From: Candidatus Peribacteria bacterium
GTDB lineage: Bacteria; Patescibacteriota; Gracilibacteria; Peribacterales; Peribacteraceae
Assembly: GCA_028286915.1 (NCBI GenBank)
Contig: JAQBQQ010000021.1
Span: 1 to 40,313 of the forward strand
Direction: 5' to 3'
Length of the DNA stretch: 40,313 nucleotides
Within the stretch, counting starts at the first letter, position 1; the number at the start of each line of letters is the position of its first letter. Shown here one piece after another: positions 5,396 to 19,482 of the stretch. The notes beneath the pieces are model-generated. The model did no database searches and was not told the DNA's origin. It was given only the letters and a program-made list of their open reading frames with translations. Made by a program: the position numbers and the translations under genes.

Positions 5396-5424
5396 GTTCG
5401 CTTTTGCTTGAGTTGCCAAAAATT

Positions 5425-5456
5425 CACCCAAACAGAGCGCCCGTACCCGGGCGCGG
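5425..5456. repeat. Dispersed palindromic element, partial copy 2
   Basis: caccca-aacagagcgcccgtacccgggcgcgg identical through the core to the 6787-6812 copy. Confidence 0.75.
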
Positions 5457-6756: not shown

Positions 6757-6815
6757 GGGCTGCTCTGCGGGTGGAAATATTTCCACCCGCAGAGCGCCCG
6801 TACCCGGGCGCGACA
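6757..6815. repeat. Long palindrome plus second hairpin (copy of dispersed CAGAGCGCCCGTACCCGGGCGCG element)
   Basis: 34-bp perfect palindrome at 6762-6795, extended with one bulge to 6757-6799, then GCGCCCG-TACC-CGGGCGC. Confidence 0.85.
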
Positions 6816-9960: not shown

Positions 9961-11121
9961 ATGCATTCTTCTTTTTCGCGCGGCACCGCAGCTCTGGCTG
10001 CCGGTATTGCCGTTCTTTCTTTATCCGTGACATCCATGGCCTTTGCCGAAGACGGTGGAACATCTTCCAGCGTGTCTTCTTCCGCAGCTGCTACATGTAA
10101 AACAGCAATGGACACCATCCGCAGTACAACGACAGATGGAACAGATGCCCGCAAAGCCGCTATTACCGAATGGCTGAAAGTATGTCAGTCCGGCCTGCCG
10201 CCTATGCGCATGCCGCCACCGACAGATAAGCCAACTGCACCAACGCAGCCAATGGCTCTGCCAAGCTGTGATGATATGTTGAAGTATCTTACGAACATGA
10301 AGGACAGCGGCAAAACCGGTGAAGATTTTACGCGCGGCATGAAGGCGTACCAGGAAAGGTGTATTAATATTACAAGCGGCGATTCCTCTTCCTCATCTGG
10401 TCCCGCGCCAACCACTCCTTCGTTTAACGGCGACCCTTGTACGTACGTACAAAAAATTATAGACCAGCTTACTGCTTCTCTGGCTAAAGAACCGGGTTCC
10501 AAAGGCCTGCAAAGCCAGCTGGATCTGGCGCAGAAAAAACTGGCCACCTGCGGCACGCAAACAACAGGCGGCAACTCAAAGAAGGAAGATCGCCCAAGGC
10601 CGATGAATACCGCGGGCACGGACGACACGAATATGAGTGATACCAAAAAGCCTATGCCGCCTATGGCCGGCAACTGTGATCAGCTAAAGAGAATATATGA
10701 AGAATTGTCCGCAAAAATGGCAACCGAAACAACCGATACCATGACCAAGCGCATGACCGAACTAAAAAGTAAAATGGCACGCTGCGCTGCCGGTCCAGAT
10801 GCCTCGCAGGCAAATCAGGCTACTTCCGATAACGCCGTAAGCGTTGCCTGCACCAAGAAGGGGGCACTGATTACCTGCGACGATGGTTTTGTCCTGGACT
10901 TGCGGAAAATGATGCGCCCGATGCCTGCCCAGAATCAAAATGATTCCACCAGCTCCATGCCGGCCACCGACATGCCTGCTACGGAAGTATCACCTGCTGA
11001 TATGACCGTTACACCTGCCACGGGTGATGCCACCAAAACAGACGACAGCAATGCGCCCGGCTCACGGCAGAAAGGAAAGTTTCTAAAAAAAGTATCCGGT
11101 CGACCGCCAAGAAATCGTTAA
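9961..11121 (+). CDS. Secreted low-complexity Met/Pro/Thr/Ser-rich protein
   Basis: Signal peptide MHSSFSRGTAALAAGIAVLSLSVTSMAFAED at an internal start; repeated C-x-MLKYL.. helical segments. Confidence 0.75.
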   Translation: MHSSFSRGTAALAAGIAVLSLSVTSMAFAEDGGTSSSVSSSAAATCKTAMDTIRSTTTDGTDARKAAITEWLKVCQSGLPPMRMPPPTDKPTAPTQPMALPSCDDMLKYLTNMKDSGKTGEDFTRGMKAYQERCINITSGDSSSSSGPAPTTPSFNGDPCTYVQKIIDQLTASLAKEPGSKGLQSQLDLAQKKLATCGTQTTGGNSKKEDRPRPMNTAGTDDTNMSDTKKPMPPMAGNCDQLKRIYEELSAKMATETTDTMTKRMTELKSKMARCAAGPDASQANQATSDNAVSVACTKKGALITCDDGFVLDLRKMMRPMPAQNQNDSTSSMPATDMPATEVSPADMTVTPATGDATKTDDSNAPGSRQKGKFLKKVSGRPPRNR

Positions 11122-11137
11122 ATCAGTAGTAACTATA
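11035..11137. repeat. Direct repeat A, copy 1 (3' end of secreted-protein gene)
   Basis: About 103 bp, near identical to 12006-12108. Confidence 0.9.
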
Positions 11138-11138
11138 C

Positions 11139-11168
11139 AAACGGCATGCCGGAAGGTGTGCCGTTTTT
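11139..11168 (+). terminator. Terminator of the 9961-11121 gene
   Basis: AAACGGCA...TGCCGTTTTT. Confidence 0.65.
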
Positions 11169-11873: not shown

Positions 11874-11969
11874 GATCCTTCTCCTTGCCCTTGATGTGAA
11901 GTCTTCCCATTGCCAATGCAATGGCAATTAAGATATTACTATAATAATATATCTTTGTCCAGTATTCTC

Positions 11970-12004
11970 AAAACCGTCTCTCCATAACCAACTGCTCACT
12001 CTCC
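11970..12004. repeat. Direct repeat B, copy 1 (fragment of GNAT gene 3' end)
   Basis: aaaaccgtctctccataaccaactgctcactc also at 13136-13170. Confidence 0.9.
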
Positions 12005-12005
12005 T

Positions 12006-12108
12006 AAAACAGACGACAGCAATGCACCCGGCTCACGGCAGAAAGGAAAGTTGGTAAAAAAAGTATCCGGCCGGCCGACAAGAAATCGTTAAATCAGTAG
12101 TAATTATA
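12006..12108. repeat. Direct repeat A, copy 2
   Basis: acagacgacagcaatgcacccggctcacggcagaaaggaaagtt...agaaatcgttaaatcagtagtaattata. Confidence 0.9.
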
Positions 12109-12128
12109 AAAAAAATTATGCAAAAAAA

Positions 12129-13044: not shown

Positions 13045-13133
13045 CGGAGACCTCTTTCTTGCTGTGAAGTATCTGAAACAAAAGAACCACTAACTACCAT
13101 TATTAACTAATAACTTAATTTAGTCAATGCATC

Positions 13134-13655
13134 TTAAAACCGTCTCTCCATAACCAACTGCTCACTCCCCTGCCCTGTTCGGTCCGGATTTATAGACTTT
13201 TCAGTAACTACAAACCCGGTTTTCACATACGCCTTCTGCGCCCGCTCGTGAACGGCGTTAACCAGCAGCCAGACACAAGGCACATGCAATATATCTCGCG
13301 CGTACTCAGTCATCAGTTGCACCGCTTCCGTTCCGTAACCTTTTCCCCATTCTTCCTTTTCGCCTATAAGTAAACCAACCTCCACGCCTTCCCTGTGTGC
13401 ATGCCTGGGCTTGGGATTTTTCATGTGAATACCGCAACTGCCAATTGGCTGCGCAGTTTTATGGAGCACGATAGTAAACTGAACCAGATTCGGGTCTGCC
13501 AATGCTGTCTCCAGCCAGATTTTTTCTTCTTCATACGTAAACGTACGGTTCACAACATGCCGCATCACCTCTTCATCCGCCGCCCACTTGGCCATCAGCG
13601 GCAAATCATCCATGGTGGAAAGCCGGAGCATGATATGTAATCCCGTACATTCCAT
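13134..13655 (-). CDS. GNAT N-acetyltransferase (RimJ/RimL-like)
   Basis: GSCGIHMKNPKPRHAHREGVEVGLLIGEKEEWGKGYGTEAVQLMTEYA. Confidence 0.88.
   Translation of the reverse strand: MECTGLHIMLRLSTMDDLPLMAKWAADEEVMRHVVNRTFTYEEEKIWLETALADPNLVQFTIVLHKTAQPIGSCGIHMKNPKPRHAHREGVEVGLLIGEKEEWGKGYGTEAVQLMTEYARDILHVPCVWLLVNAVHERAQKAYVKTGFVVTEKSINPDRTGQGSEQLVMERRF
13136..13170. repeat. Direct repeat B, copy 2 (3' end of intact GNAT gene)
   Basis: Same sequence as 11970-12004. Confidence 0.9.
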
Positions 13656-17738: not shown

Positions 17739-17831
17739 AGGCCGCTACGCGGAAATTCTAAATTCCAAGCATCAAATTCTAAATTGGTTCTTGATTTTTA
17801 GAATTTGGAATTTCTCTGTAAAACAGAGTTA

Positions 17832-17909
17832 TGGTGCACCTGGCAGGATTTGAACCTACGACTTCCAGATCCGCAATCTGGCGTTCTATCCGGGCTGAAC
17901 TACAGGTGC
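17832..17909 (-). tRNA. tRNA-Arg(GCG), CCA encoded
   Basis: GCACCTG/CAGGTGC acceptor, anticodon arm CCAGA-TTGCGGA-TCTGG, GGTTCAAATCC T-arm. Confidence 0.95.
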
Positions 17910-17957
17910 AATATAATAAAGAAAAAGAACAACTGAATGATAATTATGCACTTCTCG

Positions 17958-17987
17958 CCCACCGAAGCTCAAGAGAGCGAAGGCGGG
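17958..17987. repeat. Small hairpin element H2
   Basis: CCCACC GAA GCTC aaga GAGC GAA GGCGGG. Confidence 0.75.
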
Positions 17988-18080
17988 AACTACAGGTGCA
18001 ATATAATAAAGAAAAAGAACAACTATGCGCACTTTACAGAGAAAGCTTCAACTTCTACATATAAAAGGAGAGCTGAACTC

Positions 18081-18112
18081 TTGTCGGCCGTAGCCAAAAG
18101 GCGAAGGCTGGA
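18081..18112. repeat. Small hairpin element H3
   Basis: ttgtcgGCC GTA GCC aaaa GGC GAA GGCtgga. Confidence 0.75.
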
Positions 18113-18378
18113 CAGGTGCAATATAATAAAGAAAAAGAACAGTACTGAGGCACGAACGCCTTCGACAATAAGCTGTGCTCCATTTGAAGCTGGGAAACGG
18201 TAGCATTGAGCGGAACAGAAAACAAATCTTCTAAATATATTCAGATGTTTTTTCCTTTATTTATGTATAAAAAATTTGATCACCATGTAATCTTTGCGAT
18301 AAATGTACGTCTTATAACTGATTTAATTTTATACTTATTCTGGCTCTTTTCCATAAACGGCAATAAATACACCATAAT

Positions 18379-18507: not shown

Positions 18508-19482
18508 ATGCGACGTCTCACACTCCTCATGGTCCTCGGCACTTTCTTCGGTTACAGCGATGCGTCGGCTCAACGGACCCAGGCCAAGAAGAAGGTCGAA
18601 GCCATGACCAAGAACGCTAATCCGTTTAACGGGGCCAGACTGTTCGTTGACACAAACTCGTTGGCCGCCCGGGCTGCCAGGCAGGCCGGCGGCGAGGAGC
18701 AGAAACTGCTTCAGAAAATCGCCAGCCAGCCTCAAGCCTTCTGGATCGTCGGCGGTGAGGATCCGTCCGCGCAGGTGAGAGAAATCGTAGATGCCGCGGA
18801 GAAAGAAGGCCGGCTGGTGGTTCTGGTGGCATATAATATTCCACTGCGGGACTTCGGCGAATACTCGGCGGGCGGAGCCAATACCAAGCAAGGATACAAA
18901 ACATGGATAAGGAAATTCGCGGACGCCATTGGCAAACGGCGGGCTGTCGTCACGCTAGAGCCCGACGCTCTTACGCAACTGGAGCGGTTGCCGGAGCAAA
19001 AACAACGTGACCGCATGGAGATGCTCAACTACGCCATCACCACTCTAAAGACAAATCCAAGCACTGCTGTGTATGCGGATGCCGGCCACAGCGGCTGGAA
19101 ATCCGTCCAGGAAATTGCTCCGCGGCTGCGGGCGGCAGGTGTTGCGAAAGCTGACGGCTTTAGCCTGAATGTCTCCAACTTCCGGGCGACGAATGAACTG
19201 CTTGCCTACGGTAAGCGACTTTCGGCCGCTGTCGGTAACAAGCCCTTTGTCCTCGATGTCGGCCGAAATGGAAACGGTCCGGCAGCAAATGGTGAGTGGT
19301 GCAACCCGCCCGGGCGAGCCCTGGGTACGCCACCAACCGCAAAAACCGGTGAGCCGCTGTGCCATGCGTTTCTCTGGATCAAGCCACCTGGCGAAAGCGA
19401 TGGCAACCGCGACGGAGCGCCGAGGGCCGGTGAGTGGTATCAGAAGTACGCCCTTGAGCTGGCACGGAACGCCAAGTGGTAA
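18508..19482 (+). CDS. Glycoside hydrolase family 6 (cellulase/cellobiohydrolase type), secreted
   Basis: Signal peptide; FVDTNSLAAR, YNIPLRDFGEYSAGG, VVTLEPDALTQL, YADAGHSGW, GFSLNVSNF, DVGRNGNGP, WCNPPGRALGTPPT, LWIKPPGESDG. Confidence 0.95.
   Translation: MRRLTLLMVLGTFFGYSDASAQRTQAKKKVEAMTKNANPFNGARLFVDTNSLAARAARQAGGEEQKLLQKIASQPQAFWIVGGEDPSAQVREIVDAAEKEGRLVVLVAYNIPLRDFGEYSAGGANTKQGYKTWIRKFADAIGKRRAVVTLEPDALTQLERLPEQKQRDRMEMLNYAITTLKTNPSTAVYADAGHSGWKSVQEIAPRLRAAGVAKADGFSLNVSNFRATNELLAYGKRLSAAVGNKPFVLDVGRNGNGPAANGEWCNPPGRALGTPPTAKTGEPLCHAFLWIKPPGESDGNRDGAPRAGEWYQKYALELARNAKW

Follow-up and report, generated by a model that had tools for sequence, protein, structure and literature searches.

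Palindrome-broken copies of tRNA 5' ends in the leaders of Peribacteria tRNA genes

Introduction

tRNA genes are usually conserved and compact. How, then, did the 5' end of a tRNA-Arg gene in a Candidatus Peribacteria bacterium come to stand three times in succession, with a hairpin against each extra copy? The initial annotation of the window (the whole stretch of 40,313 nucleotides analysed here) took the repeat for a triplicated promoter and tRNA 5' end, which looked as if it had arisen by hairpin insertion with a long target duplication or by template switching at the hairpin. We examined the locus itself, the other tRNA genes of the same genome and the corresponding loci of related genomes. 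About a quarter of the tRNA genes in this genome have broken copies of themselves, with palindromes at fixed positions of the cloverleaf. Being natural and countable, these events can be used to study the spread of palindromes, the part of hairpins in setting off template switching and the survival of an essential gene under insertion.

Results

The tRNA-Arg(GCG) locus

The repeats of the window are exact and beyond chance (Table 1). The 38-bp sequence GAACTACAGGTGCAATATAATAAAGAAAAAGAACAACT, consisting of 25 nt of leader and tRNA-Arg nt 1-13, is identical at 17897-17934 and 17987-18024, and the 30-mer ACAGGTGCAATATAATAAAGAAAAAGAACA is found at 17902, 17992 and 18112, where the third copy comprises 22 nt of leader and nt 1-8; the initial annotation had all of these right. 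We found no fourth site of the 30-mer on either strand of the window, and no further copy in the genome. H2 adjoins copy 2 and H3 adjoins copy 3, as first described, and they are the only two window matches to the hairpin pattern GCCTTCGC..GCNNCGG (0.06 expected). The adjacency of H3 to copy 3 thus stands, but H3 does not merely precede that copy: tRNA nt 9-16 resume past it, and it therefore lies inside a copy of tRNA-Arg. The same insertion site, nt 8/9, recurs at tRNA-Arg(TCG) on contig C16 of the same genome and in a relative (G003).

Table 1. Features of the tRNA-Arg(GCG) locus (window coordinates)
Feature	Coordinates	Strand	Basis
Intact tRNA-Arg(GCG), CCA encoded	17832-17909	-	ARAGORN and Rfam RF00005
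Leader copy 1, 25 nt, directly upstream of tRNA-Arg	17910-17934	-	exact repeat
GTGC, complement of copy 2 tRNA nt 1-4, possible closing stem	17948-17951	-	sequence; weak alone
H2, type A palindrome CCGCCTTCGCTCTCTTGAGCTTCGGTGGGCGAG, directly after copy 2 tRNA nt 13	17954-17986	-	sequence and pattern search
Copy 2, tRNA-Arg nt 1-13	17987-17999	-	exact repeat
Leader copy 2, 25 nt	18000-18024	-	exact repeat
GTGC, complement of copy 3 tRNA nt 1-4	18029-18032	-	sequence; weak alone
Copy 3, tRNA-Arg nt 9-16 (AGTTCAGC), resuming past H3	18072-18079	-	sequence
H3, palindrome CCAGCCTTCGCCTTTTGGCTACGGCCGACAAG, between tRNA nt 8 and 9	18080-18111	-	sequence and pattern search
Copy 3, tRNA-Arg nt 1-8	18112-18119	-	repeat
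Leader copy 3, 22 nt identical	18120-18141	-	repeat
TGCTACCGT, putative extended -10 box, upstream of both units	18197-18205	-	box comparison among relatives

Along the minus strand, TGCTACCGT is followed by leader copy 3 with nt 1-8, H3, nt 9-16 and a degenerate stretch, then by leader copy 2 with nt 1-13, H2, a short spacer, leader copy 1 and finally the intact tRNA. Folded as single DNA strands, H2 and H3 are only weakly stable (z -1.6 and -1.1) because their stems contain an internal loop. Rfam matched two tRNAs in the window and nothing else, so that the unit leader belongs to no known Rfam family. Between tRNA-Arg and tRNA-Ala, at 17753-17806, lies an AT-rich inverted repeat (AAATTCTAAATT...), and similar stretches occur near other tRNAs of the genome.

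Since the window comes from a 48-contig draft, the triplication might be suspected of being an assembly artefact of a metagenome bin. We give this next to no credence: G027 and G029, each a single contig, show the same architecture, as do numerous independently assembled genomes. The locus has 0, 1, 2 or 3 units among relatives, the comparison of siblings that the initial annotation had called for, in keeping with its proposal that the extra copies are tied to hairpin insertion.

Self-copies at other tRNA genes of the genome

The tRNA-Arg locus is one case of a genome-wide pattern and not peculiar to tRNA-Arg. The window is contig C37 of a 1.43-Mb draft (G000), in which 43 tRNA matches reached the Rfam cut-off; 42 distinct intact tRNA sequences were used in the flank tests. 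A copy of the gene's own nt 1-13 was present within 400 nt upstream in 11 of the 42 (0.48 expected from a control with non-cognate tRNAs), against one copy downstream and one inverted. Broken upstream self-copies occur at Lys-TTT, Val-GAC, Asp, Asn, Arg-GCG, Thr-TGT, Met, Arg-TCT, Phe, Glu-CTC and Leu-CAA, and shorter ones at Arg-TCG and Val-TAC. Two single-contig relatives gave upstream copies at 5 of 47 tRNA genes (0.30 expected) and at 6 of 43 (0.77 expected, at least one of the six being chance-like).

Not all loci have the same make-up. At Thr-TGT, as in the window, the leader is duplicated together with the tRNA 5' end. Val-GAC on contig C5 arose by simple duplication of a block, and the tRNA copy in the second block subsequently acquired palindromes in the D-loop (type B) and the anticodon loop (type C). 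This Val(GAC) copy also serves as a warning for annotation, as ARAGORN calls it a tRNA-Gln with a 16-nt intron (L058, G000 C5:67276-67380; C5:67733-67806). Intact tRNA-Thr(GGT) and tRNA-Ser(GGA) were not found in the genome, which incompleteness of the draft may explain.

Palindrome types and points of entry

Three types of palindrome recur. Type A (GCCTTCG-loop-CTACGGC), to which H2 and H3 belong, is inserted behind tRNA nt 8 or nt 13. The D-loop and the anticodon loop are the sites of type B (CCCGAAGGGGNCCCTTTGGG); type C (TCCGCCGCGGCGGA or TCAGCCGCGGCTGA) is found in the anticodon loop as well as in the loop of type A hairpins. The palindromes thus enter at fixed tRNA positions, namely nt 8/9, nt 13/14 and the apices of the D- and anticodon loops. 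Ten of 17 type A hairpins, picked by eye on loop complementarity from the matches to a relaxed pattern, lie within 250 bp of a tRNA, in zones that make up 1.7% of the genome (p 4e-14); the relaxed pattern itself gave 46 matches vs 39 for its backward control, so that many raw matches are due to chance. Type B has seven copies with 0-1 mismatch in the genome, six of them within tRNA copies, including one on C8 in a tRNA-like copy that the tRNA searches did not recognise.

The stems were also inspected for signs of selection as RNA. Wobble of the RNA type was rejected: A.C pairs (8) are as frequent as G.T pairs (6) and therefore give no sign of RNA selection. Small D-loop hairpins were complementary in 11 of 11 cases against 5.9 expected if their arms were unlinked, and since the strict pattern caught two types only, this covariation is only suggestive.

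Hairpins resembling type A also stand directly 3' of the CCA end in Ser, Cys and Leu tRNA genes of the window's own genome (loci L040, L042, L043, L051 and L056), so that tRNA 3' ends are a preferred place too. A further dispersed hairpin-like repeat, CAGAGCGCCCGTACCCGGGCGCG, occurs in the window at 1707-1744, 5418-5455 and 6775-6812.

Distribution across genomes

An exact search for TAGCTCC followed by a type A hairpin in about 85,000 species genomes returned 66 matches in 62 stretches, mostly from Peribacteria or Peregrinibacteria with some from other Patescibacteria; a few matching bins are labelled as other phyla, which may reflect contamination. A related pattern run over 381 genomes of the phylum matched only within the window's own family. 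An intact tRNA follows 47-254 nt downstream on the same strand in 51 of the 66, a set that is biased to young units by its selection for an intact hairpin and TAGCTC. In nearly all 51 the tRNA agrees with the copy over nt 1-13, and many isoacceptors are represented. Identity is 88-100% at each of nt 1-13, where nt 8-13 are fixed by the pattern and nt 1-7 are free, and it drops to roughly 0.5 at nt -1 and to roughly 0.3 beyond. As a rule, copying begins with nt 1 of the tRNA and no earlier; exceptions are the window, Thr-TGT, L128 and tRNA-Arg of G002, where the leader was copied too. The right end of the inserted stretch varies among the matched units, and tRNA nt 14-21 are often present past the hairpin. 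A strict 13-bp target duplication is ruled out by these nucleotides and by the loci with a duplicated leader.

Some units are complex. Exact tandem units were seen in L156 (two of 105 bp), L133 (two of 122 bp) and G008 (three of about 75 bp). Of the 51 units, 13 contain six or more nt of tRNA nt 1-12 as an inverted copy (2.3 expected), examples such as GCGCTCTAACCCCTGA being found in G010 and G028, and units of G010, G028, G005 and G008 contain tRNA pieces in sense-antisense-sense order. Template switching at the hairpin, the other mechanism initially suggested, fits such units. A closed three-way junction was considered as a plan for all units and rejected, the inverted copy being confined to those 13 of 51. 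Units of L151 and L155 have a plan in common, and the Val-CAC units of two genomes align, each retaining 13 of 13 nt. In Parcubacteria-type genomes (L103, L104, L115, L116) a 114-115-nt unit with three hairpins follows one plan before different tRNAs (Val, Lys, Met); these units are the strongest candidates for a conserved structured element.

Empty sites, decay and the position of the promoter

Empty and occupied sites can be compared at two tRNA genes. At tRNA-Ile(GAT), a promoter-like TTGACC-N17-TACCCT precedes the tRNA by about 14 nt in G004 and G012; in G024, G008, L147 and G028 it precedes the copy by a similar interval. At tRNA-Trp, within one genus, homologous upstream sequence adjoins the gene in G369 (empty) and the copy in G017 (occupied). 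These sites give good support to the view that units were gained through insertion, the 5' end of the tRNA being duplicated in the process.

Of 23 tRNA-Arg(GCG) loci (the window and 22 relatives), 20 have a TGnTAnnnT box no more than 110 nt upstream of the first tRNA-like start, where base frequency would lead us to expect one by chance in about one locus in ten. In none of the 23 does such a box lie between the units and the tRNA, with the reservation that our unit finder missed degenerate units in L070, L072 and L074. This distribution suggests that the promoter is upstream of the units, which would then probably sit in the transcribed leader, and it speaks against the stacked promoters proposed in the initial annotation. 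What is present three times is leader together with the tRNA 5' end, and not an established promoter. Some Ile units end with TATCAT just before the tRNA, and these might provide a second, weaker promoter.

Units also decay. Remnants are found at tRNA-Ile(GAT) in the window's own genome and in G017, and at tRNA-Trp of G017 the gene now has T7 while the copy retains the ancestral G7 and has a change of its own. In G035 the Ile copy and its tRNA have C7 in common, which may reflect recent origin.

Discussion

What best accounts for these loci, in our judgement at about an even chance, is the recurrent insertion of palindromes through fold-back or template-switch synthesis or through some enzyme, made viable by the duplicated 5' end. 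Each unit repeats the 5' end of its own tRNA, interrupted at a fixed position by a small REP-like palindrome (H3 at nt 8/9, H2 at nt 13/14) and followed by a short, partly palindromic sequence, and such units arise repeatedly at many Peribacteria tRNA genes. The tRNA gene may fold while single-stranded; a palindrome would then be added at a stem end or loop tip, by either route, and synthesis would restart at the tRNA start. The survivors would be those events that leave one complete tRNA, and RNase P would presumably remove the unit together with the leader, rendering it near-neutral. Palindromes at loop apices, nested palindromes and tRNA pieces in sense-antisense-sense order suggest fold-back or template-switch synthesis on single-stranded tRNA genes. 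Against this counts the fact that type A hairpins form a sequence family, which pure fold-back of the tRNA would leave unexplained. It is possible, if doubtful, that Peribacteria possess an enzyme or replication pathway that reads the single-stranded cloverleaf, adds palindromes and re-copies the gene from nt 1; if they do, insertion into tRNA genes would include a new, self-restoring class.

The chief alternative to fold-back or template-switch synthesis is a specific recombinase. Such a dedicated mobile element would consist of REP-like palindromes moved by a Y1 (RAYT/IS200-like) transposase or another recombinase with tRNA genes as its target. The genome has six Y1_Tnp genes, the insertion points are fixed across different tRNAs, and REPs located within other palindromes have been described in other bacteria (PMC3733652). 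Yet the four Y1 genes examined have no type A hairpin at their loci, the inserted stretch lacks a conserved right end, the copy number is low, and the copy exceeds a simple target duplication, since nt 14-21 often continue past the hairpin; we regard this explanation as quite unlikely. A further possibility, that tRNA genes or their 5' parts were duplicated in tandem in the ordinary way and then decayed, with independently mobile REP-like palindromes landing in the spare copies, is unlikely too, if a little less so. It would suit the Val-GAC block, the repeats of the window and of Thr-TGT that include the leader, and the exact tandem units of L156, L133 and G008. However, random breakpoints would not explain why copies usually begin sharply at nt 1 and leave the promoter behind, nor the excess of upstream over downstream copies of nt 1-13 (11 genes vs 1), and nearly all units examined already hold a palindrome, often at the same tRNA position.

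It is also conceivable that the units serve as functional cis elements, in which the 5' strand of the copy competes with the genuine one for pairing with the tRNA 3' strand, or takes up an antisense segment, and thereby tunes tRNA maturation. Model folding gives the 3' acceptor strand to the copy (0.80 against 0.15), but shuffling the spacers leaves this competition unchanged (0.81 against 0.12), so that the folds are no evidence for an RNA attenuator, which we reject. The excess of inverted copies, the plan common to several Parcubacteria-type genomes and the aligned Val-CAC units would fit a function; the patchy presence between genera, the decayed units in G000 and G017 and the G017 tRNA-Trp copy that did not track its gene at nt 7 would not. 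We consider such a role very unlikely. Because units decay and need not track their tRNA, comparison of these sequences favours a near-neutral passenger over a conserved function. A conserved cis-regulatory leader RNA would likewise differ from what is seen at orthologues, where presence is not conserved (0-3 units, with empty sites within a genus).

Several known systems resemble these units in part. The E. coli tyrT (rtT) repeats are tandem units of about 178 bp, each with the last 19 nt of tRNA-Tyr. Like the present units, they are non-coding, stand in tandem within a tRNA transcript and each contain part of the tRNA concerned, but they involve the 3' end and lie downstream, whereas the present units involve the 5' end, lie upstream, contain palindromes and are spread over many tRNA genes and lineages. 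Rickettsia palindromic elements insert in frame in protein genes, and the gene is retained with its insert. Palindromes insert inside genes in both cases, but here the broken tRNA copy is an extra one. With REP/BIME sequences and their RAYTs our units have in common short, imperfect, mostly intergenic, family-like palindromes with CGTAG/CGAAG in the arms, and Y1_Tnp genes in the same genome. They differ in that REPs have a GTAG-like tetranucleotide at the end of a 20-40 nt imperfect palindrome, whereas here GTAG is inside the stem; REPs are present in high copy, as opposed to about 17 type A and 7 type B in 1.43 Mb; a REPtron arrangement, with REPs flanking a RAYT gene, was not seen at the four of six Y1_Tnp loci examined, where no type A hairpin was found; and the units show a strong tRNA-gene bias, with a copy of the tRNA 5' end in each event. 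Phages, ICEs and genomic islands integrating at tRNA genes likewise leave partial tRNA copies as direct repeats of the intact tRNA (PMC9897764, PMC3293823). Most of our units, however, measure only about 50-250 bp (to judge by the spacing in the matched set), too small for an integrase gene or cargo, and they contain the 5' end from nt 1, broken by a hairpin and stacked in tandem inside the tRNA leader.

A five-genome study of Peribacteria reports 46 tRNA genes (PMC4736985), and neither palindrome nor hairpin came up when its text was searched for these terms. In the open-access literature we met with no account of such self-copying palindromic units at the 5' ends of tRNAs, and it looks as if a recurrent insertion process at Peribacteria tRNA genes is undescribed.

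The window has other features of note. Two families of longer direct repeats are present, at 11035-11141 and 12006-12112 (107 nt, 93%) and at 11942-12005 and 13108-13171 (64 nt, 81%). The region 18508-19482 encodes a glycosyl hydrolase family 6 protein (PF01341, E 1.4e-63), an unusual cargo for a small Patescibacteria genome.
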